In this document: in pieces, positions 1,147 to 25,140 of the stretch
Layout: each line of letters begins with the position of its first letter
How positions within the stretch are numbered: position 1 is the first letter of the stretch
NCBI GenBank assembly: GCA_009784515.1
Contig: WRBN01000006.1
Location: 1-36,583 of the forward strand
Direction: 5' to 3'
DNA from: Spirochaetaceae bacterium
Lineage (GTDB): Bacteria > Spirochaetota > Spirochaetia > WRBN01
Length of the DNA: 36,583 bases
Notes under the pieces: model-generated
Seen by the model: the letters and a program-made list of their open reading frames with translations, nothing else
Databases searched by the model: none
What the model was told of the DNA's origin: nothing
Translations under genes and position numbers: made by a program

Positions 1147-3015
1147 TTATTGAGCGCCAGTAACGATACGGGCATTGGGCAAACTGCTAAAGCCGATAAT
1201 ATCTTGCTGGGTTAAAGGGTTACCGCGTATCACCAGCTCTTGTAAATTAACAAGGCCAGTTACATCTAAACTAATTAGCTGGTTATTAGCCAAATTAAGA
1301 GTAACAAATTGTGTATTATTACTTACATTAAGGCTGGTTAGTTGGTTATTGCTTACATTCATAGTTCTTAAAGCAACGTTAGTAGTTAAATTTAACTGGC
1401 TTAGCTGGTTACCGCCGGCGCTAAGATGGGCCAAATTAACCAAACGGTCTAGGTTAAGGCTGGTTAGTTGATTATTACTTACATTAAAACTTTCTAACCT
1501 AAGCAAATTACTTACATCTAAACCAGTTAATTGATTATCTACCACCTGAAAAAAAGTTAAATTAACGTTACGGCTTACATCTAAGCCGGTTAAATCATTC
1601 CAATTTAAATTAAGCCTATCTAAATTAATATTATTACGTAAATTTATGCTGGTTAATTGGTTTCTTGCCAAATTAAGCTCGGTAAGTCTGGTTAGCCTTC
1701 GCACGTCAAGGCCGGTAAGCTGGTTACCCCCTGCCCAAAGGGTAGTTAAATTACTAAGCCTGCTTACATCTAGGCTGGTTAACTGGTTAGTATGCAGCTC
1801 TAAAACCGTTAAAGTATTAATCCGTCCAAAATTAATAGTGGTTAGTTGGTTAGTGGCAGCATAAAGATGGGTAAGCCTAGTCCGGCTTACATCTAAACTG
1901 GTTAGCTGGTTCCCCGCTATACTAAGCCAAGTTAAATTGGTGTTATTACTTACATTAAAATTAGTTAAGTTGTTGCCGGTTACATTAAGCCAAGTTAAAC
2001 CCCTTAAATTGCTAATATCCAAATTATCTATTGAGTTGTTAAATAAATCGAGGCTGGTTAACCTAACGTTATTACTTACATTAAAACCGGTTAGTTGATT
2101 ATCACGGGCATTCACTAAAGTTAAATTAACAAGACTATCAATATTTAAATGAGTTAATTGATTAGCTCTTGCATTAAGCTCGGTTAACCTAATCAGACCG
2201 TCTACATTAAGGCTGGTTAAGCGGTTATTATGCACCCATAAAACCGTTAAATTGGTAAGCCCATTAACATTAAGGTTAGTTAGCTGGTTATCTTGTAGTT
2301 CCAGCTCGGTTAAATGGCTAAGATGATTAACGGTGATACTCGTTAGCCGGTTATCGTTTACATAAAGATTAGCCAAAATAGTATTATTATTTAAATTAAG
2401 GCTAGTTAGCTGGTTAGCGCCTACGCTAAGCCAAGTTAATAAGGGATTATTACTTACATTAAAACCAGTTAAATTATTGTTACCCACATTAAGCCAAGTT
2501 AAATTGGTAAGAGTGTTTATATTAAGGCTGGCTAATTGATTGTTCCATAAATCTAGCACTCCTAAATTGGTAAGCCGGCTTATATCTAAGCTGGCTAACT
2601 GGTTATTACGGCCGCTAAACCAAGTTAAATTGGTAAGGTTACTTATATTAAGAGCAGTTAATTCGTTATCGCCTAAATCTAGCTCTACTAAGCGTGTTAG
2701 GTTATTTATATTAATGGCGGTTAATTGATTATTACCGGCATCAAGCCAAACTAACCCGGTAAGGTACTCTAGCCCCGCCGCATCGCTAATGTTTCGGCCG
2801 CTAATATCAAGGCCGCCGCCAAGTGCAGCTAAGGCATTACTTAGCTCTTGCCCGGTAAGGCCGGCATTACGGCCCAGCCGCTGGGCTACCGCTGTGCGTA
2901 AGTTGCCATCGGGGAATAAACTATTAAGGGTGGCGCCGGCCGGCACCGATAAACCCTGCCCGTAACTACTAGCTAAAGCCGTTATTAATAAAATAATGGT
3001 TAAACATTTTTTCAT
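1147..3015 (-). CDS. Secreted leucine-rich-repeat protein (622 aa)
   Basis: The signal peptide covers residues 1-19 (ending ASSYGQ). The cap region (about 23-75) carries SLFPDGNLRTAVAQRLG and is shared with the flanking LRR paralogues. About 25 tandem 21-residue repeats follow to near residue 605, with consensus LTxLNVxxLxxLTxLxxxxNQ, and a short C-terminal cap (NPLTQQDIIGFSSLPNARI). No membrane anchor, LPXTG or choline-binding segment is visible, so the protein is either released or held non-covalently. It is the first gene of a two-gene LRR unit, with its own promoter at 3047-3075 and an AAGAGGA ribosome-binding site. The repeats are about 63 bp in DNA, giving scope for recombination. A host or glycan-binding role is inferred from the fold only. 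Confidence 0.9.
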   Translation of the reverse strand: MKKCLTIILLITALASSYGQGLSVPAGATLNSLFPDGNLRTAVAQRLGRNAGLTGQELSNALAALGGGLDISGRNISDAAGLEYLTGLVWLDAGNNQLTAININNLTRLVELDLGDNELTALNISNLTNLTWFSGRNNQLASLDISRLTNLGVLDLWNNQLASLNINTLTNLTWLNVGNNNLTGFNVSNNPLLTWLSVGANQLTSLNLNNNTILANLYVNDNRLTSITVNHLSHLTELELQDNQLTNLNVNGLTNLTVLWVHNNRLTSLNVDGLIRLTELNARANQLTHLNIDSLVNLTLVNARDNQLTGFNVSNNVRLTSLDLFNNSIDNLDISNLRGLTWLNVTGNNLTNFNVSNNTNLTWLSIAGNQLTSLDVSRTRLTHLYAATNQLTTINFGRINTLTVLELHTNQLTSLDVSRLSNLTTLWAGGNQLTGLDVRRLTRLTELNLARNQLTSINLRNNINLDRLNLNWNDLTGLDVSRNVNLTFFQVVDNQLTGLDVSNLLRLESFNVSNNQLTSLNLDRLVNLAHLSAGGNQLSQLNLTTNVALRTMNVSNNQLTSLNVSNNTQFVTLNLANNQLISLDVTGLVNLQELVIRGNPLTQQDIIGFSSLPNARIVTGAQ

Positions 3016-5147: not shown

Positions 5148-6536
5148 TTAAAACCAATCATGCGTTATTATTCTTAAATTAGGCAGGGTATCTATTCCTA
5201 TAATATTTTCTTCGGCCAATGTATGGCCATCTATCCTAAGCTGCTGCAAATGAGTAAAACCGCTTATGTTAAGGCTGATTATGTGCGGATTATGGCGGAT
5301 AGTTAAAAAAGTTAAGCCCGTAAGATTGCTTATATCTAAGCTAACCAACTGCGAATTACTCGATACATTAAGGCCTCTTAAATTACTAAGGTTACTTACA
5401 TCTAAGCTAACTAACAGTGGATTATTTGTTACAAATAAACGAGTTAAGCCCGTAAGATTACCTATATTAAGGCTAGTTAATTGCCTATTAGAATGTACCG
5501 TAAGATCGTTTAAATTAAGGTTGCTGCTTACATCTAAGCTAATTATGCCGCTACCGCCTACTTCAAGGTGGGTTAAATTAAGCAAATTACTTACATTAAG
5601 GTTAGTTAGCCTGCTGTTAATTATTGTAAGATGTGTTAAATTATTATTATTGCTTAAATCTAGGCTCATTAATGGGTTGCCATCACCAACATTAAGCCGC
5701 TTTAAATAAATATTATTACTTATATCTAAATGCGTTATACTATTTCTTGCTATATCAATCTGAGTTAGATGTGCGTTATTATCTATATTAAGATTGGTTA
5801 ACTGATTAGCACCTACAAAAAGCTCGCTTAAGTAAGTAAGGCCGCTTACATCTAAGTAAGTTAAATTATTACTGCCTACAGCAAGCACGTTTAAATTAAC
5901 AAGGTTACTTACATCTATGCCGGTTAGCCGATTGTTTGCCGCTAAAAGGGTGGTTAACTTGGTGTTATGGCTTACATCTAACTGGGTTAAGCGGTTACCC
6001 GCTACATTAAGCAAAGTTAAATTAGGCAAATTACTTACATTTAGGTTGGTTAGGCCCCAAGTAAGCTTTTCGTCGCTAATCGGCGGCTGATTTTCTATAC
6101 GCAAATCAGCTAAATTAGGTAAATAATCAAACTCGATGGAAGCTAAGCGGCTCATCTCTAGCCGCAGTTCGGTTAAATTAGGCAAATGGCCTAATTTAAA
6201 ATGAGTTAAGCTATACAAATCAAACTGGCCGAAATGCAGCTTAGTTATGTTACCCGATGTTATGGTAAGCTCTCTTAAACCACTTAAATAGCGCAAACCG
6301 GTACCATCATTTACATTATCTATAGTTAATGTGCGAATTCCGGCCACTGCATCGCCCAGCCTTTGCCCCATTAAAGCGGCACGGCGGCTGCCTAACCTTT
6401 GGGCTACGGCATTGCGCAAAGCTTCATCGGGAAAGAGGCTCTCAAGGGTGGCATCGCCCGCTACAGGACGCCCTCCTGTAAAATAATGACAGCTTACAGT
6501 TGCCAGCAGTAAAACTATAGCCAAAATAACTTTCAT
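5148..6536 (-). CDS. Leucine-rich-repeat lipoprotein (462 aa)
   Basis: Residues 1-16 end in LLATVSC, a relaxed lipobox of spirochaete type, so the protein is probably a lipoprotein acylated at Cys16. The cap (SLFPDEALRNAVAQRLG, residues 34-50) is the one found in the two other LRR proteins of the window. A divergent LRR section follows (about 70-155, more irregular spacing), then about 14 regular 21-residue repeats (LTxLDVSxLxxLxxLxVxxN) and a C-terminal cap (EENIIGIDTLPNLRI). Unlike its paralogues it carries a lipid anchor. AAGAGG precedes the start. It is divergent from the gene at 6635. Surface exposure is plausible but inferred. Confidence 0.87.
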   Translation of the reverse strand: MKVILAIVLLLATVSCHYFTGGRPVAGDATLESLFPDEALRNAVAQRLGSRRAALMGQRLGDAVAGIRTLTIDNVNDGTGLRYLSGLRELTITSGNITKLHFGQFDLYSLTHFKLGHLPNLTELRLEMSRLASIEFDYLPNLADLRIENQPPISDEKLTWGLTNLNVSNLPNLTLLNVAGNRLTQLDVSHNTKLTTLLAANNRLTGIDVSNLVNLNVLAVGSNNLTYLDVSGLTYLSELFVGANQLTNLNIDNNAHLTQIDIARNSITHLDISNNIYLKRLNVGDGNPLMSLDLSNNNNLTHLTIINSRLTNLNVSNLLNLTHLEVGGSGIISLDVSSNLNLNDLTVHSNRQLTSLNIGNLTGLTRLFVTNNPLLVSLDVSNLSNLRGLNVSSNSQLVSLDISNLTGLTFLTIRHNPHIISLNISGFTHLQQLRIDGHTLAEENIIGIDTLPNLRIITHDWF

Positions 6537-9748: not shown

Positions 9749-11233
9749 ATGAAAAAACTAATTTTATTAGTTACAGCCGTCTTTATTATTAGCTGCGGAG
9801 CTAGTAATAATGCCAACTTCGATTTAATCATCTTTCATACCAACGATAGCCATGGGCGTGGGATAAGCACCGGTAATAATGTCATCAATTATGCTTTACT
9901 CGCCGGTTATGTAGAAAACTATCGGGCCGAAGGGGCCACGCTACTGCTAGATGCGGGCGATGCCATTGCCGGGTTGCCTACCGGTAACTTAGCGCGCGGC
10001 ACCAATGTGATAGAGGTAATGAACCTAGTGGGTTTTGATGCCATGACACTAGGTAACCACGAGTTTAACTGGGGAGCCGACCACGCTTTGTCGTTAATTG
10101 GCTTGGCCGATTTTCCTCTTGTGGCCGCCAATATTTTAGCTCCCAACGGCACACCTCCTTTTACCCCTTACATTATTAGAACCTTTGAGGGTGTACGCGT
10201 AGCCATTGTTGGCTTAGCCACCCCCGAAACCTTATTTAAAACTAACCCCGAAGGGATTATCGGTTATAGTTTTGTCGACCCTGTGGAAACTATGCGCGCC
10301 CTTATGCCGGCCTTAAACCGCGAGGCCGATATTATTGTTGCCCTTGCTCACTTAGGGCAAGAAGGGGCCGATACCAGCATTCGTTTAGCTACCGAAGTAA
10401 ACGGTATTAACCTTATCATCGATGGCCACGACCATGCTTTATTGCCCGAAGGCTTATGGGTAGGTAATACTTTAATTGTTTCTACCGGCGCTCATTTAAG
10501 TAATTTAGGTAAAGTTACCTTAACTATCGAAAACGGCCAACTAGCTAGCAGCCGTGCCGAACTTTTACCGCGCAGCGCCTTTGAAAGCGTGCCCGCTAAT
10601 GCCGCTATCGAGGCGATGTTTGCCCGTATTAATGCCGAAACTGCCGTTATTATGAACGAGATAGTAGCCAGCACCCCGATAGCCCTTAACGGCGAGCGCG
10701 CCGATGTACGTACCGGCGAAACTTTACTGGGCCAGTTAATTGCCGATAGTTTAATTGCCGAAACCGGCGCCGATATTGCCATTATGAACGGCGGCGGTAT
10801 CCGTGAGAGTATCCCGGCCGGACCTATCAGCAAAGGCCAAGTTATTACGGTATTACCTTTTGCCAACGATATTGTAACCATACGTATTAACGGCGCTACC
10901 TTAAGAAGGGCCTTAGAGCACAGTGCCGGCGTTTACCCCGAGCAAAGCGGCGGTTTTTTGCACCCGGGCGGTTTTAGCTATACCATTACTCCCAGCCAAC
11001 CGGCCGGCAGCCGTATTAGCAACGTTATGGTTAATGGCGTGGCCTTAAACGATAACTTTACCTACACCGTAGCCCTTGCCAACTTTTTAGCCAGCGGTGG
11101 TGATGGTTTTACTATGTTTGCCGATACCCCTTTAACCGGTATGTTTGCCAGCGATGAAGTTATTTTTATTAACTATTTACAAAGCGGTAATGCAGGCTTT
11201 ACTTTTAGCCCACGTATTACTTGGGTAAGGTAA
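9749..11233 (+). CDS. 5'-nucleotidase/UshA-type lipoprotein
   Basis: 494 residues. The lipobox FIISC puts the acylated Cys at residue 16. The metallophosphatase domain shows HTNDSHG (30-36), DAGD (68-71), LGNHEFNWG (101-109), LAHLG (199-203) and DGHDH (225-229), which together supply the two-metal site. The C-terminal nucleotide-binding domain has NGGGIRES (347-354) and the ASGGDGF stacking-loop motif (448-454). Family members hydrolyse nucleoside 5'-phosphates, or UDP-sugars, outside the cytoplasm for purine and phosphate salvage. All metal-ligand motifs are intact, so activity is expected; the precise substrate cannot be read. It has its own strong promoter and a terminator at 11247-11282, making it monocistronic. 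Confidence 0.93.
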   Translation: MKKLILLVTAVFIISCGASNNANFDLIIFHTNDSHGRGISTGNNVINYALLAGYVENYRAEGATLLLDAGDAIAGLPTGNLARGTNVIEVMNLVGFDAMTLGNHEFNWGADHALSLIGLADFPLVAANILAPNGTPPFTPYIIRTFEGVRVAIVGLATPETLFKTNPEGIIGYSFVDPVETMRALMPALNREADIIVALAHLGQEGADTSIRLATEVNGINLIIDGHDHALLPEGLWVGNTLIVSTGAHLSNLGKVTLTIENGQLASSRAELLPRSAFESVPANAAIEAMFARINAETAVIMNEIVASTPIALNGERADVRTGETLLGQLIADSLIAETGADIAIMNGGGIRESIPAGPISKGQVITVLPFANDIVTIRINGATLRRALEHSAGVYPEQSGGFLHPGGFSYTITPSQPAGSRISNVMVNGVALNDNFTYTVALANFLASGGDGFTMFADTPLTGMFASDEVIFINYLQSGNAGFTFSPRITWVR

Positions 11234-11246
11234 CCCAGATTATAAC

Positions 11247-11282
11247 AAAAAAGGGCTAGCCATTAGCGCTCAGCCCTTTTTT
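11247..11282 (+). terminator. Rho-independent terminator of the 5'-nucleotidase gene
   Basis: A perfect 11-bp stem AAAAAAGGGCT (11247-11257) / AGCCCTTTTTT (11272-11282) with a T-rich right arm, 13 bases past the stop. The A-rich left arm would make it work on both strands. Confidence 0.85.
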
Positions 11283-11351
11283 AAATTAAGTTCCTATTAT
11301 TGCAAATAGCTGCTGATTATCGGCATGGTATTCAATATTCCTTATTTATGT

Positions 11352-11357
11352 TATAGT
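11352..11357 (+). promoter_or_regulatory. -10 box of the manA-like gene, leaderless
   Basis: TATAGT followed by 6 bases (TAAACT) and the ATG at 11364; no Shine-Dalgarno. The -35 region (TATTCA at 11329-11334, 17-base spacer) is weak. Confidence 0.45.
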
Positions 11358-11363
11358 TAAACT

Positions 11364-12461
11364 ATGAAAGAGCTTTACTACTTAAATAATCCCGTTAAAA
11401 ACTATAGTTGGGGCCCCATAAACGGCCTTGTTCCCTTTACAGAAGAAGATGACCGGCCACAGGCCGAACTATGGTTAGGGGCGCACCACTTGGGCGAATC
11501 TGTAGTGATTAACGGCAAAAATAAAATCACTCTTAGTAAATTTATGAAACAAAATGCTATTTTAAAAGATACCGCCGGCTTGTCTTTTTTGCTAAAAGTT
11601 TTAGCCGTAGACGGCCCAACTGCCCTCTTTTTACACCCAAACAAAAGCCAAGCTAGGGTTAATTTTGGCCAAAATAAACTGTTTGTAGATAATAACGGTA
11701 AAGATAAATTAATTTGTGCCATCGATAACTTTAGCCTACTAGCCGGCATTAAAGAGGCCAAGCAGCTTTACCAAAGTTTTACCGGCTGCCACTCACAGGC
11801 TCTTAGCCACGAGCTGGCGGCTTTAAGCGGGCAATTAAACGAAGAAGGTGTTAAAACTTTTATCACCGGCCTTTTTAAGTTAGAGACTAAACGCCTTAAC
11901 CGTTTTATTGATGAAGTTCTGGCTAACCCGCATAATGAACTATTATGCAGTTATATTGAGCATTTAAGCCGGCTTTATCCTAATAGCATAGCGGCCTTAG
12001 CCCCGCTTTACCTTAATTTATTTACTTTGCAAGCCGGCGAGGCTCTCTATCTTACCGCCGGGCAGCCGCAGCTTTACCTTAACGGCCTAGCTTTAGAGCT
12101 AGGTGATAACAGCGACAACCAACTAACTTTTAGTAAAGATGAGCTAACTTTTAGTTGCCTAAACTTTGCACAACCTAAACCCCTTAGTGCCGATGATGAT
12201 AGCTTTTACCACTTTGATGCTACCAAAACTTTTAAACTACAACGGTTACAGCTTGATACCGATTATTTTATTAATGCCAAAAACTCTGCTCAAATTATGG
12301 TGTGTACCAAAGGTAAAGCTAGGCTTACGATGGTTAAGGGCAATAAGGCCGGCCAAAACGACAGTTATTTAATTAAGCGCGGCCAAAGTTTGTTAATCCC
12401 TTTTGCTGCCGGGGGCTATACCTTTAGCGGCAAGGGCGAATTTTACCTAGCGCATAGTTAG
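11364..12461 (+). CDS. manA: Mannose-6-phosphate isomerase homologue with degenerate metal site
   Basis: 365 residues with the type I phosphomannose isomerase layout: NYSWG (13-17), AELWLGAHHLG (34-44), FLLKVL (75-80), LHPNK (90-94), a helical insertion, then AGEALYLTAGQPQLYLNG and DNSDN (248-252). Type I enzymes interconvert mannose-6-P and fructose-6-P using a Zn ion bound by Gln, His, Glu and His (E. coli Q97, H99, E134, H255). Aligned by eye, only the first His survives (H91). Gln is F89, the Glu of the KPE motif is K115, the last His is Q236, and the active-site Arg of VLRAG is T255. The fold is clear but activity is doubtful; a regulatory or binding role, or altered chemistry, is possible. 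The gene is intact and leaderless. Confidence 0.8.
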   Translation: MKELYYLNNPVKNYSWGPINGLVPFTEEDDRPQAELWLGAHHLGESVVINGKNKITLSKFMKQNAILKDTAGLSFLLKVLAVDGPTALFLHPNKSQARVNFGQNKLFVDNNGKDKLICAIDNFSLLAGIKEAKQLYQSFTGCHSQALSHELAALSGQLNEEGVKTFITGLFKLETKRLNRFIDEVLANPHNELLCSYIEHLSRLYPNSIAALAPLYLNLFTLQAGEALYLTAGQPQLYLNGLALELGDNSDNQLTFSKDELTFSCLNFAQPKPLSADDDSFYHFDATKTFKLQRLQLDTDYFINAKNSAQIMVCTKGKARLTMVKGNKAGQNDSYLIKRGQSLLIPFAAGGYTFSGKGEFYLAHS

Positions 12462-12522: not shown

Positions 12523-13263
12523 TTAGATAACTTTAGCAATTAGCTGGATTGTATTAAAGTAGTTGCCGCCTTCTGCCGCCATCATATCCAAATCCCATTT
12601 TTCGTCTGGAACAGAAGGGTTCCGGGTGGCAAGGTATTCCTTCCAAGCTATATCGTGGCAAACCATTTCGCTTATGCTGATAATTTCTATGCCCTTGGCC
12701 TTACTCCATAAGTCTTTCCACCATTCAATACCACGAACAAACCTTGCAACCTCTGGAACACTCCAAAATGGTTGCATTTCCGGTGGAACATTGTCGCCAA
12801 AATCATATTTAAGCCCGGGAAAGGCCACGGCAATGTAGCCGCCTTTTTTAATGTAAGAGGTAAACTTTGGTAACATATCTTCATTATCACCAAACATATT
12901 GTAGGCGCCTACTGAAAAAATCACATCGAAATAATGCTTGGCAAAAGGTAAGAGCAAAGTTGCATCTATCATCATTGGAACGATTTTATCTGCAATGCCA
13001 AGTGATTGAAATCTCTCATAATTTTCGGTCGGGTCGGCATATAAATCGGCGGCAAAAACCTCTGCACCGTATTCTTGCGCCAAATACAACGACGACAAGC
13101 CCGGCCCGCAACCTAAATCGAGAATTTTCATATCCTTTGTGATGGCAAAATGCGAAGCCAATTCCTCCGCTTGCCGTATACCATTCGGGCCCCACATTGT
13201 AGATTGCAATAGGGCAAAATTTTTTTCATCGGCCATAAATTTATTTGAAAATGTATTACTCAT
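12523..13263 (-). CDS. Class I SAM-dependent methyltransferase
   Basis: 246 residues. Motif I is ILDLGCGPG (about 47-55), followed by the acidic end of strand 2 (EVFAADLY) and motif IV-like FDVIFSVGAYNMF; the helical lid has WGPNGIRQAEELA. This is the Methyltransf_11/25 fold, substrate unspecified. The C-terminal half (PFWSVPEVARF, IEWWKDLW) resembles small-molecule methyltransferases with an added substrate-binding section. Codons around motif I (CTC, TTG, TCG, GCG) differ from the TTA/CTT-rich usage of its neighbours, which may point to horizontal acquisition. GGGAG precedes the ATG. It lies just downstream of pstS on the same strand (17-base gap), so co-transcription is possible. Confidence 0.87.
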   Translation of the reverse strand: MSNTFSNKFMADEKNFALLQSTMWGPNGIRQAEELASHFAITKDMKILDLGCGPGLSSLYLAQEYGAEVFAADLYADPTENYERFQSLGIADKIVPMMIDATLLLPFAKHYFDVIFSVGAYNMFGDNEDMLPKFTSYIKKGGYIAVAFPGLKYDFGDNVPPEMQPFWSVPEVARFVRGIEWWKDLWSKAKGIEIISISEMVCHDIAWKEYLATRNPSVPDEKWDLDMMAAEGGNYFNTIQLIAKVI

Positions 13264-14323: not shown

Positions 14324-14710
14324 TTAGCCATTTTTAAGCCTTTGTTCTTCTTGTTCAATAGCTTTTTTAAGAGCCTCAAGAGCGGCAGGGACATCTTCTT
14401 TAGCTACCTTTAATAATCTCCGCTCCCTAACCCCATCATATTCATGAATAATTACATTACGCATATCGGTCATATCGCGCCAAAGAATATCTTTATATTT
14501 ATTTTGTATCTCCTCCGAAACACGATTAGCGGCTTCACCCGCTATCTCAAAGGTACGTTCTAAACCACGCATAACCAACTTAGAGTATTTTTCATCTATT
14601 TCTTTATTCTGCTGTAAAAGTATTTCATACTCGGCAGCATAGCCTACTCCTTCTGTAAGACTGGCTATCATATCTTTCATATATTGTATATGGCGTTTAT
14701 TCTTTTTCAT
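14324..14710 (-). CDS. HepT-like toxin (HEPN ribonuclease)
   Basis: 128 residues, all-helical HEPN fold. The catalytic RX4HXY motif is R84-NVII-H89-E-Y91 (MRNVIIHEY). The region LERTFEIAGEAANRVSEEI is typical of HepT (DUF86). HepT is the RNase toxin of HepT/MntA modules; in studied systems the antitoxin MntA AMPylates the Tyr of this motif and blocks activity. The start overlaps the stop of the antitoxin gene (ATGA), indicating translational coupling. The motif is complete, so an active toxin is plausible. The last 20 residues are a charged tail (KKAIEQEEQRLKNG). Confidence 0.9.
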   Translation of the reverse strand: MKKNKRHIQYMKDMIASLTEGVGYAAEYEILLQQNKEIDEKYSKLVMRGLERTFEIAGEAANRVSEEIQNKYKDILWRDMTDMRNVIIHEYDGVRERRLLKVAKEDVPAALEALKKAIEQEEQRLKNG

Positions 14711-15006
14711 GTGTAAATGGTATCCTCCAAAATATGAGCTTTAAATTCTTCACGTAAATCTTCTTCAAGATGCGGGTCGGTTTTAATCTCAAAGAGGGTT
14801 TGAAAGTCGCGATTAATACGAACTAACTCAAAAAGGCCAATATGGTCGGTATTATCGCAAAAGTAAACAATATCAATATCGCTCTGTTCCGTTTGTTCGC
14901 CCCGGGCATACGAACCAAATACTCCTATCTTGGTAATAAGATATTTTCGTTTAAACTCGGGAGCTGCTGCCCGTAAGGTTTCCAAAATTTCTTCGAGCGT
15001 TTTCAT
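14707..15006 (-). CDS. MntA-like nucleotidyltransferase antitoxin
   Basis: 99 residues of the minimal nucleotidyltransferase fold. GVFGSYARGEQTEQSDIDI carries the GSX10DXD signature (G31-S32 ... D43-I-D45), and the third acidic residue is probably within FEIKTD. This is the MntA/MNT family partner of HepT, an adenylyltransferase that inactivates the toxin. It precedes the toxin and overlaps it by 4 bases. The promoter 15013-15041 places transcription start at the ATG with no ribosome-binding site, so antitoxin translation starts leaderlessly while the toxin depends on coupling, a layout that would favour antitoxin. Confidence 0.92.
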   Translation of the reverse strand: MKTLEEILETLRAAAPEFKRKYLITKIGVFGSYARGEQTEQSDIDIVYFCDNTDHIGLFELVRINRDFQTLFEIKTDPHLEEDLREEFKAHILEDTIYT

Positions 15007-18867: not shown

Positions 18868-20871
18868 TTAATGGCTTAAAAACATTAAGCCATCGTAGCC
18901 GGCCCAGCTTTCGCCGTTAATGGCATCACGCAAAAGCAGGTAATTACTGTAACGGGTAACCAAAGTAAAACTTTGCCCGGCACGGGCGGTGGTAAGTAAG
19001 CTGGCGCTGCTGCTGGGAATGTTAAACAGCTGCACTTCCTCCAGCACAATTACTCTATTATTAGGCAAATGGTTAGCATAAATAACATAACCGGTAGCTG
19101 CCAAAGCTAAAACAATAGCCAAACCGCTAAGCAAAAACCTATAACCCTTACTTTTAATAATTAATGTTAACCCGGCAAACAATAAAGCAAAGCTAACCAA
19201 CAAAGGAAAAAGCCAGCTTTGCCGCACAGTTAGCCTAATATTGGTAGTTAAATTTTGGCTTTGCTCAAAAGCCGTTAAAGTACCTGCAATGCGCTTGTTA
19301 AATGGGTTAAAACTATAAGCTTTATGTAAATAATAAACAACATAGCCACACTCGCCTAGCTGCTGATACATTAAAGCTTTATTATAGTTAATAGCCGCTT
19401 GGTTATGTTTAAATTGGCCTTCGGCTAAGGCATAAAAGGCAATAGCTTCGTGCCAAAAGCCGCTCTGTTTAGCCTCTGCCGCCCGGATTAAACTTTCGAT
19501 ATTAAGATTAGCTTTAAACGAAAACAATAACGGCATTACCATAAAAAAACTAAGCATTACTTTTTTTTGCGGCTTGGGTTTAAAAAATTGCCCCACCAGC
19601 AGCCCAGCTAATAAAATAAGTGGTAAAACATAAGGCCACACTCTAAAATCGCGCATAGCTAAAATTTCTTCTACACTCAGCACCGGCAGCAGGTTAGCCG
19701 CTTCGGGCTGAATATTAAAATAATTTATTAAGTTAGCCGGCTGTATTACTTGCCCGCTGGCGGTATCTAGCCAATTAAAGGGGGTTACCGCTAAGCTGGC
19801 CTCCCCGGCAGCGCTAGGGCGCAGCCTATACTCCACCCGTTTAAAACCGGCAAGGCCATGCCCCGTTACCCTTAACTCTTCGCTTGTGTTACTATCTATA
19901 ACCTCAAAACCATTAAGCTGCAAAGCCGGTAAAGTTAATCTATTAAAGTTGCCTTCGCCCTCCAGCAGTAAAACCACATTTAAAGTTGAGCCATAGGGAA
20001 TAGTATCACCTTGCCAAGCTTGGCCATTAAGCCAAATATGTGTACTTAAATTAAAGCGGCCTACGGCATTATGGCTAACTGCCGCCGGTAAGGCAAAAAT
20101 ATCGATGACGGCTGGAGGAGCCGTACGCACAGCACCGGCAATTACCGCACTCATAGCCGGTAAAGTTATCCGGCCGGCAGCCGTAGCATTTACCAACCAC
20201 GAACCAACGGGAATATGGTAATAAAGGCTACCATTAATTTGTTCGTAGGTAATACCACCAAAGGCTCCGGCCGGCGCCACCTGCAAGCCGGTTATGGCCG
20301 GTAAATTAACTGTAGGCAGCGGGCTAAGCTCGCGCAAATTACGGGCCTCTAACACTAAAGTAAAACTTTGCCCGGCATAAAGGCTATTAGGAATAGCCCG
20401 CCAAGCCAACGCAGGGCTGGGTGTACTGCCGGCAGGCGGAGCAGGGCTTACCGTAAAGGGAAAAGGATTACTCCACAATGTGCCTTGTGCCGTATCTAAC
20501 CTAACCGGAGCTATTTCGTAACTGCCGGCAGCGGCCCGCAGGATATAACTATATTCTACACTATCACCTAAAACCGGGTTAAAATTTACTCTTGCGGTGG
20601 GACCGCTTATGATGGTAAGGCCGCGCGGAAAAGCTAAAGCTGTAGCCACAAAGTTATCACTGATATTGTACATTACCGGAAAGATAAAACTTACCTGAAA
20701 ATTTTGCCCCGCCTGCGGATTAAGCGGGTAAATGGTTACCGCTACTTCGGGCAACTGACCGTAAGCAGGCAGCTTTAACAACAAAAAAAGCGCTACAAGG
20801 AACTGTTTAAAGTTAAGGGGTATTTTAGGCCGGCCGGTAAAGCCGGCTACCAGTCGTTTTCGTCTTGCCAC
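18868..20871 (-). CDS. batD: BatD-BatE fusion protein
   Basis: 667 residues. A signal peptide or anchor lies at about 19-38. The BatD periplasmic beta-domain modules span about 40-395 (PEVAVTIYPLNPQAGQNF and the repeated module starting AGQSFTLVLEARNL). A transmembrane helix is at 411-430. A second hydrophobic stretch (437-452) resembles a signal peptide, followed by a TPR-like helical region (455-540), two transmembrane helices (552-572, 578-599) and an SH3-like C-terminus (604-667). TPR plus two helices plus SH3 is the layout of Bacteroides BatE, so batD and batE appear fused. Bat proteins are envelope components linked to aerotolerance or envelope stress. The start overlaps batC by 25 bases. 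Confidence 0.82.
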   Translation of the reverse strand: MARRKRLVAGFTGRPKIPLNFKQFLVALFLLLKLPAYGQLPEVAVTIYPLNPQAGQNFQVSFIFPVMYNISDNFVATALAFPRGLTIISGPTARVNFNPVLGDSVEYSYILRAAAGSYEIAPVRLDTAQGTLWSNPFPFTVSPAPPAGSTPSPALAWRAIPNSLYAGQSFTLVLEARNLRELSPLPTVNLPAITGLQVAPAGAFGGITYEQINGSLYYHIPVGSWLVNATAAGRITLPAMSAVIAGAVRTAPPAVIDIFALPAAVSHNAVGRFNLSTHIWLNGQAWQGDTIPYGSTLNVVLLLEGEGNFNRLTLPALQLNGFEVIDSNTSEELRVTGHGLAGFKRVEYRLRPSAAGEASLAVTPFNWLDTASGQVIQPANLINYFNIQPEAANLLPVLSVEEILAMRDFRVWPYVLPLILLAGLLVGQFFKPKPQKKVMLSFFMVMPLLFSFKANLNIESLIRAAEAKQSGFWHEAIAFYALAEGQFKHNQAAINYNKALMYQQLGECGYVVYYLHKAYSFNPFNKRIAGTLTAFEQSQNLTTNIRLTVRQSWLFPLLVSFALLFAGLTLIIKSKGYRFLLSGLAIVLALAATGYVIYANHLPNNRVIVLEEVQLFNIPSSSASLLTTARAGQSFTLVTRYSNYLLLRDAINGESWAGYDGLMFLSH

Positions 20872-21422
20872 TGATAGTTACCTCCTTCACGCAACCAAAT
20901 ATGAGCCTCTTGCCGTCTTAAAAAATCGAGCATACGTTCTTGCTCCGAGCTTAAATCGTTACTGTTAGCCTCTCTTATTTCACCGGCTCTTTCGGCCCCC
21001 CGCTGGAAAAGGGCCAGCTCTAAATTTATTTTAGCATTAAAATCATTAGGGTTAGCCATTAAAGCAGCAATAAAACTGCTTACCGCTTCATCAAATTGTT
21101 CTAACCTAAAGTGCATTACTCCTTGATTAAACAGCGCCTTAGAACGTGTTTCGTAGTTATCACTGGTTTCCGCTAACCGCCACATCTCTAAGGCCGCTTC
21201 GGCTTCGCCTAAAGCATCGTAAACATTACCCAAATTAAAATAAATACGTTCGCTTTGCCGGTTAAACTCTAGGGCTCTAAAATAAGCGGCCACCGCTTCG
21301 TGGTAACGGCCTTGCTCAAAACGGTAGTTACCCGATAAAACCAAAAAAGCCGGAGCAACGGCGTTACAGCCCGAAAGCCAAGTTAAAGACAAAATTAAAA
21401 CGAGCCGTATAACCTTGACCAT
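20847..21422 (-). CDS. batC: BatC-like TPR lipoprotein
   Basis: 191 residues. The lipobox WLSGC gives acylated Cys19. Three TPR units follow: GNYRFEQGRYHEAVAAYFRA, IYFNLGNVYDALGEAEAALE and ALFNQGVMHFRLEQFDEAVS, then a helix and an acidic C-terminal tail ending near QDENDW. In Bat operons BatC is the TPR scaffold between the von Willebrand-domain proteins and BatD. The gene overlaps batB by 28 bases and batD by 25, indicating coupled expression. The family assignment rests on TPR content and operon position. Confidence 0.82.
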   Translation of the reverse strand: MVKVIRLVLILSLTWLSGCNAVAPAFLVLSGNYRFEQGRYHEAVAAYFRALEFNRQSERIYFNLGNVYDALGEAEAALEMWRLAETSDNYETRSKALFNQGVMHFRLEQFDEAVSSFIAALMANPNDFNAKINLELALFQRGAERAGEIREANSNDLSSEQERMLDFLRRQEAHIWLREGGNYQWQDENDW

Positions 21423-22378
21423 CTTGCACTCCTTATAGCCAGTTTGCCAATTAAGCTGATAATTGCTAACAACACAAAGTTATTAAATAAGCTGTAATTA
21501 ACATAACTTAAAATAAAATTACTTTGCTCGTAACCTTTAAGCGCCTCAAGCAAGGTTTCTATTAAAGCCGCCTCGTTAATGTTATGATACCAGCCATTGG
21601 TATGGTTAGCCAAAGTTATTAACGCAGCTTCCTCTAGGCGGCTAATCACCGGCTGCCCACTTCGGTGCATAATTTGCTCACCGCTAGGTAAAAAAAGATG
21701 CGACCCTTCGTGTGTGCCCACGCCAATGGCAAAGATGGTAACGTCGCGCCGGCGGGCTAACCTAATGGCCTCTTCAATATCACCGGAGAGAGCCTCGCCA
21801 TCGGATAACACAATAATCACTTTTTTACGGCTATTATCATTAGCAAATAAACTGGTAGCGCTATTTATCCCGGCCGCTAAATCACTGCCGGGACTAGTTA
21901 GATGGCTGGGGCTGGCATGGTTAATTAAAGTAATAACAGCGTTATTATCATCGGTTAAAGGCATAACCGGCACAGCCGTACCTTTAAAGATAACCAAAGC
22001 CAGACGCGAGCTACTAAGGTTAGCCGCCAGCTCGCCGGCGGTAAAACGCATAGCTTCTAGGCGGCTGGGGGGAATATCGGTAGCCAGCATACTATTAGAA
22101 ATATCCAACACAAACACTACATCTAACCCCAAATTTTCGCGCTGCACGGCCCGGCGGCCAATATAAATATCGGCTAAAGCCAAAACTGCCGAGCTATAAA
22201 AAACGGTAAAACTTAAAGCCAACAACATAAAACGTAAAGTAAAAAGTTTTTTATGGTGCGGGTTGCCGCCAATACTTAAATAAGCACGCCAACTGCTTTT
22301 AAAAATAAAGAGATAACCTATGGCTATAGGTATTAATAATAAAAGTAACCATAAAATTTGTCTGTATAATATAATCAT
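21395..22378 (-). CDS. batB: BatB-like von Willebrand A-domain membrane protein
   Basis: 327 residues. Transmembrane helices are near 5-25 and 48-70, a VWA domain spans about 85-275, and a C-terminal helix lies near 292-315. The metal-ion-dependent adhesion site is intact: DISNS (92-96), the Thr/Ser loop TSPGSDL (161-167) and LSDGE (192-196). In Bat operons BatA and BatB are paired VWA proteins in the inner membrane with the VWA domain outside the cytoplasm. The start codon has no clear ribosome-binding site. The 53-base AT-rich gap to batA is the only real spacer in an otherwise overlapping operon. Confidence 0.87.
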   Translation of the reverse strand: MIILYRQILWLLLLLIPIAIGYLFIFKSSWRAYLSIGGNPHHKKLFTLRFMLLALSFTVFYSSAVLALADIYIGRRAVQRENLGLDVVFVLDISNSMLATDIPPSRLEAMRFTAGELAANLSSSRLALVIFKGTAVPVMPLTDDNNAVITLINHASPSHLTSPGSDLAAGINSATSLFANDNSRKKVIIVLSDGEALSGDIEEAIRLARRRDVTIFAIGVGTHEGSHLFLPSGEQIMHRSGQPVISRLEEAALITLANHTNGWYHNINEAALIETLLEALKGYEQSNFILSYVNYSLFNNFVLLAIISLIGKLAIRSARWSRLYGSF

Positions 22379-22431
22379 ATTTTCTCAATTAAGAATTAAA
22401 AGATAAAAACTACCCCTTAATTATTACTTAT

Positions 22432-23436
22432 TTATACTACCTCACGTAAAATTAATGCCCTGATGGCCAGCGAAATTAAAGCCAAAATAAACGCCACCAA
22501 TAAAAATTGGCGGTTATAAGCCGTACTTAAGGTAATTAACCTAAAACGGGTATCGCTGCGTTCTAAATTATTAACGGCCTGAAAAGCCGAGTCGAAACCC
22601 CAAAAGCTTTCGGCCCTAAAAAAAAGACCGCCGGTTTGTTCGGCAATACGCCTCAGCAGCTCTTCATCGTAAGAGGCATCGTTAATTATCCCATCAATAA
22701 GTACACCCGTTTGCGGGTGAATAAAACTAACATTTACTACGCCGGGCCGGCCTACCCCAATGGTAAAAGCGGTAACCCCCAGCGAATTTAAAATATCAAT
22801 GGCCGTTAAAGGGTGAATTTCGCCGGCATTATTATCGCCATCGGTAACTAAAATTACCACGCGGTTACGGCCTTCAATATGGCTTAAATGCAAAGCGGCC
22901 AACGCCAACGCCATACCAATGTTAGTACCGTCTCCTAGCTCCATTATCCGCACCGCATCAAGGCTGGTTAGCAGAAAGTTATAATCTAAAGTTAAAGGCA
23001 CACGTAAAGCTGCTTCACGGCCAAAGGAAATAAGGCCAATTTCATCGTTTTCGCGGCTAGAGATAAAACGCCTAATGGCATCTTTAGCTAGCTCGAAGCG
23101 GCTTTCGCCGCCAATATCACGTGCCGCCATCGAGGGCGATTCATCTAGCACTAACATAATGGCTGCTCCTCTATTAAAGTAAAGCCGCTCGGTAGTGGTA
23201 CTTTCGGGTCCGCTTAAGCTAATAACTAATAAAAAAGCCGCCAGCCAAAACAATAAATAAGAAAGTTTAGATAAAAAAATAGCCGCTACCGGTTTGAGCC
23301 GATAAGGTTTAAGCCGCCACAGTTTAAAGCTCCATAACAGCCGCCCACCACGTTTTTTTCTAAAATGAAAAAGATAGATAAGCACCGGAAAGCTAAGCAA
23401 AATAACTAAATAACTTAGCTCATTAAGTAATAGCAT
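22432..23436 (-). CDS. batA: BatA-like von Willebrand A-domain membrane protein
   Basis: 334 residues. An N-terminal BatA-type region has two hydrophobic segments (5-24 and 52-74) around a basic cytoplasmic loop (RKKRGGRLLWSFKLW). The VWA domain (about 88-275) carries DESPS (98-102), DGTNIG with Thr171, and VTDGDNN (197-203), a complete metal site. A C-terminal helix lies at about 310-330. This is the first of the two VWA proteins of the operon; its partners are BatB and probably the DUF58 protein. It overlaps the upstream gene by 14 bases. Confidence 0.88.
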   Translation of the reverse strand: MLLLNELSYLVILLSFPVLIYLFHFRKKRGGRLLWSFKLWRLKPYRLKPVAAIFLSKLSYLLFWLAAFLLVISLSGPESTTTERLYFNRGAAIMLVLDESPSMAARDIGGESRFELAKDAIRRFISSRENDEIGLISFGREAALRVPLTLDYNFLLTSLDAVRIMELGDGTNIGMALALAALHLSHIEGRNRVVILVTDGDNNAGEIHPLTAIDILNSLGVTAFTIGVGRPGVVNVSFIHPQTGVLIDGIINDASYDEELLRRIAEQTGGLFFRAESFWGFDSAFQAVNNLERSDTRFRLITLSTAYNRQFLLVAFILALISLAIRALILREVV

Positions 23437-24283
23437 TGCGTTTTCCTTTATAACGTTCGTAATTTTTAGCTAAATTACGTACCAGTTCAATATCTTCTTT
23501 ACGTTGCTTATCGCTTATTTTTAAGCCGCCAAATTTAATTAAATCGCCTCGTTCGTATAATTTAACAATCAAATTTATCTCTTTTACGTTATAACTTTTT
23601 TTAAGCAGGCCGGCAAATTCATCGGCTGTGGCACTGCGGTATTCCTTAACATGGCTGCTCTTGCTAAGATAATTACGGTAACTTTCGAGTAAAGTAAAGT
23701 AAAATTGCCTGTTATCCAGCTCTTCGGCTTTAAGTAACTGTTTAATATCTTTGCGCAGCTCTTTAAAAGGCGAATACCAATAATTAATAAAAGTTTGCAT
23801 TAATTTTTTAGCAGCCCGCAATCCATAATAAATGATGAGAGGGAATAAAAAAAGTGTGGCTACCGACAAAGTAATAAGTAAAATAGTGCCATTTAAAGCC
23901 AGCGGCAGATAAGCCGAATGAAGTTCTTGGTTAGCATTATTGCCCAGTAATGAGGCCACATTGTAATTAATAGCCGTCGTTTGTACAGCCCCAAAATCAA
24001 AGCTGATGGTACCGGCACCCGGAGCAAAAACTCTAAATTCTACCATTACTAAGGTATCTGTCGCCCGCTGAACAACTCGTATTTGCTCCACAACAATACG
24101 TTCGTTCATCTCGTAAGGCTGTACACTTAATAAAATGTCTTCACCAACCGGTAAGGTAAACTGTAAGGAAATGCTATCACCCACATAATAATGAGCCGGA
24201 ACAAAAACGATATTTTCGGGAGTTAGCTGCAAAGCAAAAAGAGGCCAAGCTAAAAACAGGCAAACAAACCTTAATTTTCTCAT
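23423..24283 (-). CDS. Bat-operon membrane protein, DUF4381-like position
   Basis: 286 residues. A signal peptide (1-18, ending FALQ) leads to an extracytoplasmic beta domain (about 20-118, BatD-like strands such as YYVGDSISLQFTLPVG), one transmembrane helix (about 128-153) and a basic helical cytoplasmic tail (155-286) containing FYFTLLESYRNYLSKS and TADEFAGLLKKS. This layout and its place between the DUF58 and batA genes match the small DUF4381-like proteins of MoxR/Bat operons, but similarity by eye is weak, so the name is positional. It overlaps the DUF58 gene by 4 bases (ATGA) and batA by 14. Confidence 0.72.
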   Translation of the reverse strand: MRKLRFVCLFLAWPLFALQLTPENIVFVPAHYYVGDSISLQFTLPVGEDILLSVQPYEMNERIVVEQIRVVQRATDTLVMVEFRVFAPGAGTISFDFGAVQTTAINYNVASLLGNNANQELHSAYLPLALNGTILLITLSVATLFLFPLIIYYGLRAAKKLMQTFINYWYSPFKELRKDIKQLLKAEELDNRQFYFTLLESYRNYLSKSSHVKEYRSATADEFAGLLKKSYNVKEINLIVKLYERGDLIKFGGLKISDKQRKEDIELVRNLAKNYERYKGKRNAIT

Positions 24284-25140
24284 CGTTTAAGCCTCCTTTT
24301 AAAAAAGGAGTTAAGGGCCGCTAAGGCATCGTCTTGGGTAGAGATTATTAAAGTATCTACACCGTGTTTTTTACAGTTTTTATGCCAAGAAACACGCATT
24401 GTTTGCCAATAGCCGGTATAATCTTTCCTAAAACGGTTAGAAAGCGAGTGGATAGCCATACTATAGCCCTCTTCAATATCACTAAGAGTAAGAAAGCCCA
24501 CTTTAGGAAAAGATACATCTAATTCATCTTCTATCCTAATAGCAATAACATCGTGCCTGCGACTTAACATAGCTAACTCATGCCAATAACCATCGGCTTT
24601 AAAATCGCTAACGATAATACAAATACCCCGCCTTTTCATCATTTCACCGGCGGTGCGCAAAGCAAGCTCCAAATCGGAGCCCCTTTGTTTAGGTTTTAGC
24701 TCTAAAATTTTTTTAAGCTGCCCTAAAAAATAACGCTCCCCTCGTTTAGAGATAGACAAATGCTCAATCGTTTCGCCAAACAAAATACTGCCAACACGGT
24801 CGCCGTTTTTAGTAGCGGCAAAACCTAATAAAGCAAAAATTTCTTCGGCTACTCGCTGTTTTTGGACATTAAAACCACTGCGCATACTGGAAGAAATATC
24901 AAAAATTAAAGTTAATACCAGCTCACGTTCTTCTTGATAAACTTTACAGTAAGGGGCTACCATACGGCTGGAGACATTCCAATCGATAAACCGTACATCA
25001 TCACCCAAAACATAGGGGCGAGATTCGTAAAATTCGAGACCCGGCCCTTTAAATAACGAGCGGTAACTGCCCGAAAAAAAGGCATCTAATAAACGGTTGC
25101 TTTGTATGCGCAGCCGCTTGAGTTTAGCTTTAGAGTCCAT
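24280..25140 (-). CDS. DUF58 protein, first gene of the Bat operon
   Basis: 286 residues with the DUF58 signature GLEFYESRPYVLGDDVRFIDWNVSSR (35-60, only partly quoted motif; key residues E38, R41, Y43, G46, D47, R50, D53, W54). A VWA-like core follows with DISSS (81-85). DUF58 proteins accompany MoxR ATPases and VWA proteins in MoxR/Bat loci and are thought to assist metal or cofactor-dependent maturation of client proteins. It opens the operon: the promoter 25148-25176 starts transcription at about the ATG, with no Shine-Dalgarno. No MoxR gene lies upstream; the next feature is a tRNA. Confidence 0.9.
   Translation of the reverse strand: MDSKAKLKRLRIQSNRLLDAFFSGSYRSLFKGPGLEFYESRPYVLGDDVRFIDWNVSSRMVAPYCKVYQEERELVLTLIFDISSSMRSGFNVQKQRVAEEIFALLGFAATKNGDRVGSILFGETIEHLSISKRGERYFLGQLKKILELKPKQRGSDLELALRTAGEMMKRRGICIIVSDFKADGYWHELAMLSRRHDVIAIRIEDELDVSFPKVGFLTLSDIEEGYSMAIHSLSNRFRKDYTGYWQTMRVSWHKNCKKHGVDTLIISTQDDALAALNSFFKRRLKR

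Follow-up and report, generated by a model that had tools for sequence, protein, structure and literature searches.

A phosphomannose isomerase paralogue with three of four zinc ligands replaced in a Spirochaetaceae bacterium

Introduction

The zinc ion of type I phosphomannose isomerases (PMIs) is held by four residues, a glutamine, a histidine, a glutamate and a second histidine (1pmi; PMC3765361, available part of the text). The accessible portion of PMC4718643 adds that ring opening and proton transfer also involve the glutamine and a Lys/Glu pair. The same portion describes a natural exception: the PMI of Bacillus subtilis has a lysine at the position of the glutamine ligand and is inactive, and changing that lysine to glutamine gives activity. 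PMI is a monomer, as stated in the available part of PMC2684688. Searches of an open-access library listed no paper on a PMI paralogue without its zinc ligands.

The gene described here encodes a PMI-like protein and lies in a 36,583-nucleotide stretch of DNA from a Spirochaetaceae bacterium (contig WRBN01000006.1), called the window in what follows. The genome of this organism has a size of 1.83 Mb in 129 contigs, with 95.3% completeness and 2.74% estimated contamination.

The PMI-like gene and its product

The PMI-like gene (11364..12461, + strand) runs from an ATG at 11364 to a TAG and encodes 365 amino acids with no internal stops. The product is homologous to type I PMI over its whole length. 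It scores 129.2 bits against TIGR00218, the ManA family (residues 5-361, cut-off 116.2), 59.4 bits against the catalytic domain of type I PMI (PF20511) and 31.6 bits against PF21621, the cupin domain at the PMI C-terminus. A cupin/bicupin fold would be expected from these matches to PMI domains; the AlphaFold models had a mean pLDDT of 37.4 for the protein alone and 34.7 with one homologue, both far below usable. Since the protein passes the curated cut-off, annotation pipelines would call it a mannose-6-phosphate isomerase, a name that is almost certainly wrong. The reading frame, its coordinates and the residue numbers given by an earlier sequence-only reading are right; F89, H91, K94, K113, K115, Q236 and T255 were located by script.

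The zinc ligands were placed by a phmmer alignment with ManA structures of the Salmonella/E. coli type (E 1e-21, residues 4-255 of the window protein). The ligand positions are ungapped in this alignment and in one with an enterobacterial ManA encoded on a viral contig, and both place the same residues. In ManA numbering, the ligand Gln97 is replaced by F89 (codon TTT, 11628..11630, + strand), Glu134 by K115 (AAA, 11706..11708, +) and His255 by Q236 (CAG, 12069..12071, +). H91 (CAC, 11634..11636, +) corresponds to His99 and is the sole ligand kept, and K113 (AAA, 11700..11702, +) preserves the conserved catalytic Lys132. The place of Arg274 is taken by T255 (ACT, 12126..12128, +), which follows the NSDN motif, and the canonical R-x-G-L-T-x-K sequence is missing or changed thereafter. 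The alignment with the enterobacterial protein has a 7-residue gap straight after T255, and the Gly, Thr and Lys positions of the R274 loop are gaps in the window protein. Overall, two stretches are absent from the window protein: some 11 residues following HPNK...GQ and some 7 of the R274 loop. The four replacements and the kept histidine had been proposed from an alignment by eye, and the independent alignments returned the same assignments. The ligand changes are not plausible as sequencing slips, because F89 is encoded by TTT whereas glutamine is encoded by CAA or CAG.

Distribution among homologues

Homologues were gathered at three levels: the genome to which the window belongs, its class and its phylum. 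The 138 loci collected are those that were automatically returned plus those chosen from hit lists, rather than all hits; one of the hit lists behind the chosen loci alone matched 279 of 394 genomes and another 141 of 392. Among the frames of these loci that fit the family profile, 120 are distinct. Eight positions were scored, Q97-H99-K132-E134-H255-E264-D270-R274, where E264 and D270 are labels of this analysis for the E of the LE..NSDN motif and its D. The string QHKEHEDR was found in 114 of the 120 distinct homologues, and the window protein has FHKKQEDT. All four zinc ligands are kept in 116 of the 120 and one is changed in three; the window protein alone has lost three.

The remaining non-standard rows are few. 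HHKEHEDP belongs to a diverged second copy in the sister genus, considered below. HHKEHEDR is that of L127 (G170:C67:19800-21400), a PMI from a different family of the class in which the glutamine ligand has become histidine and the other key residues are kept. QHKEYEDR comes from L132 (G214:C1:416000-417800), a manA with an in-frame TGA, a ligand His-to-Tyr change and a truncated frame; its genome measures about 0.9 Mb, and the gene is probably broken. Six further loci, L067-L072, encode distant PMI-like proteins of 323-398 amino acids, scoring 32-74 bits, which occur beside or instead of a canonical manA. Two of these, L070 and L071, change the arginine only and keep all zinc ligands.

The extent of divergence was assessed at 41 near-invariant columns, each conserved in 95% or more of the canonical rows (111, or 110 with the own-genome copy set aside when the columns were chosen). 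The window protein departs from the consensus in 18 of these columns, the sister genus's diverged copy in 15, the canonical copy of the window's genome in 4 and the sister's canonical copy in none. The framework residues unchanged in the window protein are WG, AE-W, Lys78, HP, Ala97, Asp109, Lys113, Gly128, Gly241, Glu245 and SDN. Ten of the 41 columns are taken here to be those of the active site. Change showed no clear excess at these positions, with 6 of the 10 active-site columns altered against 12 of the 31 other near-invariant ones. The gene had been described as otherwise intact in the sequence-only reading. That description holds for the open frame and the framework motifs, but not for the near-invariant columns, 18 of which are changed, nor for the two internal deletions.

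Further relatives were sought beyond these homologues. Pattern scans of genomes and viral contigs, with patterns drawn from the window protein or from both diverged copies, confirmed no relative; on the viral contigs they returned one enterobacterial manA and three further contigs without PMI. A tblastn search of plasmids and phages matched 31 plasmid records and 1 phage record, with at most 32% identity among the 9 matches listed.

Second copies and their origin

The search for a canonical manA elsewhere in the genome, which the sequence-only reading had proposed as a check, was successful. The gene lies on another contig (G000:C9:5955-7124), scores 177.7 bits and has all eight key residues. 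Its product is 35-36% identical to the window protein. The sole other member of the family that was examined, a genome of another genus (G001), likewise has two PMI copies, one canonical at 240.9 bits and one diverged at 99.4 bits, below the cut-off. This diverged second copy in another genus goes beyond what had been read from the window. It is encoded at L033:7176-8387 on the minus strand, has H-x-H, E and H at the ligand positions and has lost the arginine loop. With Gln replaced by His, its ligands are those of ordinary metal-binding cupins. Identity between the two diverged proteins is 29-30%.

The two diverged copies have 10 departing columns in common (of 18 in the window protein and 15 in the sister copy). 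These are the Gln ligand with the Leu and Ser that precede it, the Tyr of RNYxD, the Met after LE, and five residues of the loop that follows NSDN (Arg, Gly, Thr, Lys and Asp). At the RNYxD column, 112 rows have Tyr, 1 has His, 5 have gaps, and the 2 with Phe are the two diverged copies and no others. Rare residues common to both copies number 15. The runner-up for the window protein has 8 in common with it, and the runner-up for the sister copy has 10. No gene neighbourhood is common to the two diverged copies, and the window's genome gave no match to the protein encoded next to the sister's diverged copy.

Trees were built from three sets of rows. In an 89-row tree made by a quick method, the diverged copies were paired weakly, with a support of 73. 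The 41-row tree was unresolved and placed each diverged copy weakly with the canonical copy of its own genome (35/85 and 35/89); a constraint that joins both diverged copies gave a log-likelihood 11.8 higher than that tree. In a 27-row tree, the 41 near-invariant columns were removed, so that active-site losses common to both copies cannot drive the grouping. There the diverged copies came together at 96/90, with the caveat that the sister's copy sits on a very long branch; forced alternatives cost 5.2 and 4.8 log units and were not rejected (AU p 0.39 and 0.33). The rare common residues and the 96/90 tree suggest that both diverged copies more likely descend from one old duplication.

TIGR01479 (GDP-mannose pathway) was found in neither genome of the family, and PGM/PMM-family proteins are present, three in each genome. 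Thus the PMI role here is more likely catabolic than tied to GDP-mannose.

Gene context and retention

A terminator hairpin (A6GGGCT ... AGCCCT6; 11247..11282, + strand) separates the PMI-like gene from the upstream gene for a 5'-nucleotidase-type protein with a lipoprotein-like start (9749..11233, +). It has a calculated energy of -17.4 kcal/mol and a z-score of -4.7. With so strong a terminator upstream, the PMI-like gene is probably transcribed as a separate unit. The 5'-nucleotidase gene and the convergent downstream neighbour, a SAM methyltransferase gene (12523..13263, - strand), both lie outside the unit. No operon surrounds the PMI-like gene, and none of its neighbours points to a function.

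A candidate -10 hexamer, TATAGT (11352..11357, +), lies 6 bases before the ATG. It was picked by eye, has a weak -35 and was unlisted by the consensus scan. The canonical manA of the same genome has TAAAGT at a similar place before its ATG. In both manA-type genes of the genome (start regions 11335-11366 and L035:7125-7160), a -10-like hexamer precedes the ATG by about 6-8 bases and a Shine-Dalgarno sequence is lacking, whereas many neighbouring genes have GGAG-like sites. Leaderless transcripts are a possible arrangement for both manA-type genes.

The codon usage index of the PMI-like gene is 0.696, which falls inside the range of 21 other genes in the window (0.626-0.754), close to the canonical paralogue (0.702) and well away from random synonymous versions (0.487, sd 0.020). 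In a neutral simulation of frames of the same length, 160, 20, 1 and 0 of 1000 stayed open at 0.05, 0.1, 0.2 and 0.3 draws per site. The PMI-like gene does not look decayed, because its codon usage is native and its frame is open. These features, the simulations and the open copy in the sister genus favour retention over decay.

Several other loci in the window were noted. Genes for a HepT-like ribonuclease and a nucleotidyltransferase (PF01934, PF01909) adjoin at 14324-15006 on the minus strand, in a HEPN/MNT toxin-antitoxin arrangement. A run of genes at 18868-25140 (minus) with VWA and BatD domains (PF13519, PF13584) resembles the Bat aerotolerance operon. The minus strand also encodes two long proteins with leucine-rich repeats and signal-like starts, one at 1147-3015 (PF12799, 109.6 bits) and the other, judged by eye, at 5148-6536.

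Lost activity and proposed role

M6P isomerase activity has almost certainly been lost from the window protein. This conclusion, drawn from the aligned residues, is well supported because three ligands are gone, among them the ring-opening Gln and the acid/base Glu, together with the Arg loop, and because the B. subtilis enzyme offers a precedent. The sequence-only reading had offered a pseudoenzyme or a new function, and the first is taken here as the likelier of the two. The protein is probably a retained and seemingly expressed paralogue of type I PMI that carries out no M6P/F6P isomerisation and may act as a metal-free binding pseudoenzyme, or sensor-type cupin.

A history can be proposed for such a protein. 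An ancestor of the bacterial family would have duplicated manA, and one copy stayed canonical and presumably still performs the PMI reaction. The other copy may first have lost its substrate loop, that is, the Ser/Gln of L-S-x-Q-x-H, the Tyr of RNYxD and the R-x-G-L-T-x-K that follows NSDN. The diverged copy of the sister genus would then have ended with H-x-H/E/H, an ordinary 3-His-1-Glu cupin metal site. In the window lineage, the metal site would have been dismantled (F89, K115, Q236), with the bicupin framework of WG, AELW, HP, GxALE, NSDN and the C-terminal cupin kept. The resulting metal-free pocket may serve for non-catalytic binding of a ligand or partner protein, and the ammonium group of K115 might replace the zinc charge. 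It is tentatively suggested that these steps form a series within one family-specific paralogue, leading from a metalloisomerase to a metal-free binding protein that persists beside the working enzyme. Loss of the loop would have preceded the conversion of the zinc site, either to 3-His-1-Glu or to a metal-free form with a lysine. Regulation through a mixed dimer finds no particular support, because PMIs are listed as monomers.

The strongest competitor of this reading is a neofunctionalised enzyme, in which the remodelled pocket catalyses another reaction either without metal, like the RmlC-type epimerases, or with a displaced one. The cupin superfamily does include metal-independent sugar epimerases, and the H/H/E/H set of the sister copy is a standard cupin metal site, both by the available part of PMC3765361. 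In addition, the window protein retains K113, which corresponds to the catalytic Lys132, as well as the E of LE..NSDN. However, a second ligand set is not apparent in its sequence and there is no operon or pathway context, and a new enzyme is considered unlikely. A redundant duplicate whose constraint was relaxed after duplication, and which has already lost its function with the frame still unbroken, would account for the 18 changed near-invariant positions spread over active-site and other columns alike, for the two internal deletions and for the presence of a full canonical copy in the same genome. It is less likely still, as the 365-codon frame is intact despite only about 35% identity to the canonical paralogue, the codon usage is native, simulated neutral frames close fast and a diverged copy is open in another genus.

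That the protein is still a PMI, with the metal held by other residues, is very improbable. Its score above the curated ManA cut-off and the retained H91, K94, K113 and NSDN speak for it, but that score reflects the fold rather than catalysis. The Gln of ring opening, the Glu that is both acid/base and ligand, the His ligand and the Arg loop are lost together, and a Lys at the Gln ligand is by itself enough to inactivate the B. subtilis PMI, according to the accessible text of PMC4718643. An artefact of misassembly, contamination or sequencing error, for which an assembly of 129 contigs with some estimated contamination leaves room, is hardly to be credited. The genome's own canonical copy ranks first among the homologues in the searched genomes (175.6 bits, tied with one further member of the class), the codon usage is like that of the neighbours, the contig has ribosomal protein operons (judged by eye) and the change to F89 requires three substitutions.

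Inactive-looking metalloenzyme paralogues are already known, and the added interest of this locus lies in its counterpart from another genus, which seems to be partway along the same path. If the diverged copies are one paralogue, active, altered-site and site-less forms of a metallo-cupin could be compared within one small family, which is rare, and they would prompt the question why a sugar isomerase fold persists once its chemistry is lost.

Comparison with known systems

The window protein resembles ManA (TIGR00218; PF20511/PF21621; structures 3h1m, 2wfp and 1pmi) in length, domain order and the motifs WG, AELWLGAH, HPNK and LALE..NSDN. It differs from ManA by the changes Q97F, E134K, H255Q and R274T and by the absence of the R-x-G-L-T-x-K loop. 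A parallel in arrangement is the second PMI-like protein of the sister genus, which also stands beside a canonical manA, has lost the Ser/Gln strand residues and the Arg loop and has the Tyr-to-Phe change; this copy keeps H, H, E and H, and its neighbours differ. The AdoMetDC prozyme of trypanosomes, a catalytically dead paralogue with an activating role, is similar in being retained beside an active partner, as described in the available part of PMC5201418. A hetero-complex would be a mere guess for the window protein, PMI being a monomer in the accessible text of PMC2684688. A biochemical parallel is BsM6PI (1QWR), by the available text of PMC4718643 a natural PMI homologue with its Gln ligand replaced and no measured isomerase activity. 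BsM6PI has one ligand replaced and is otherwise canonical, whereas the window protein has lost three ligands and the Arg loop.
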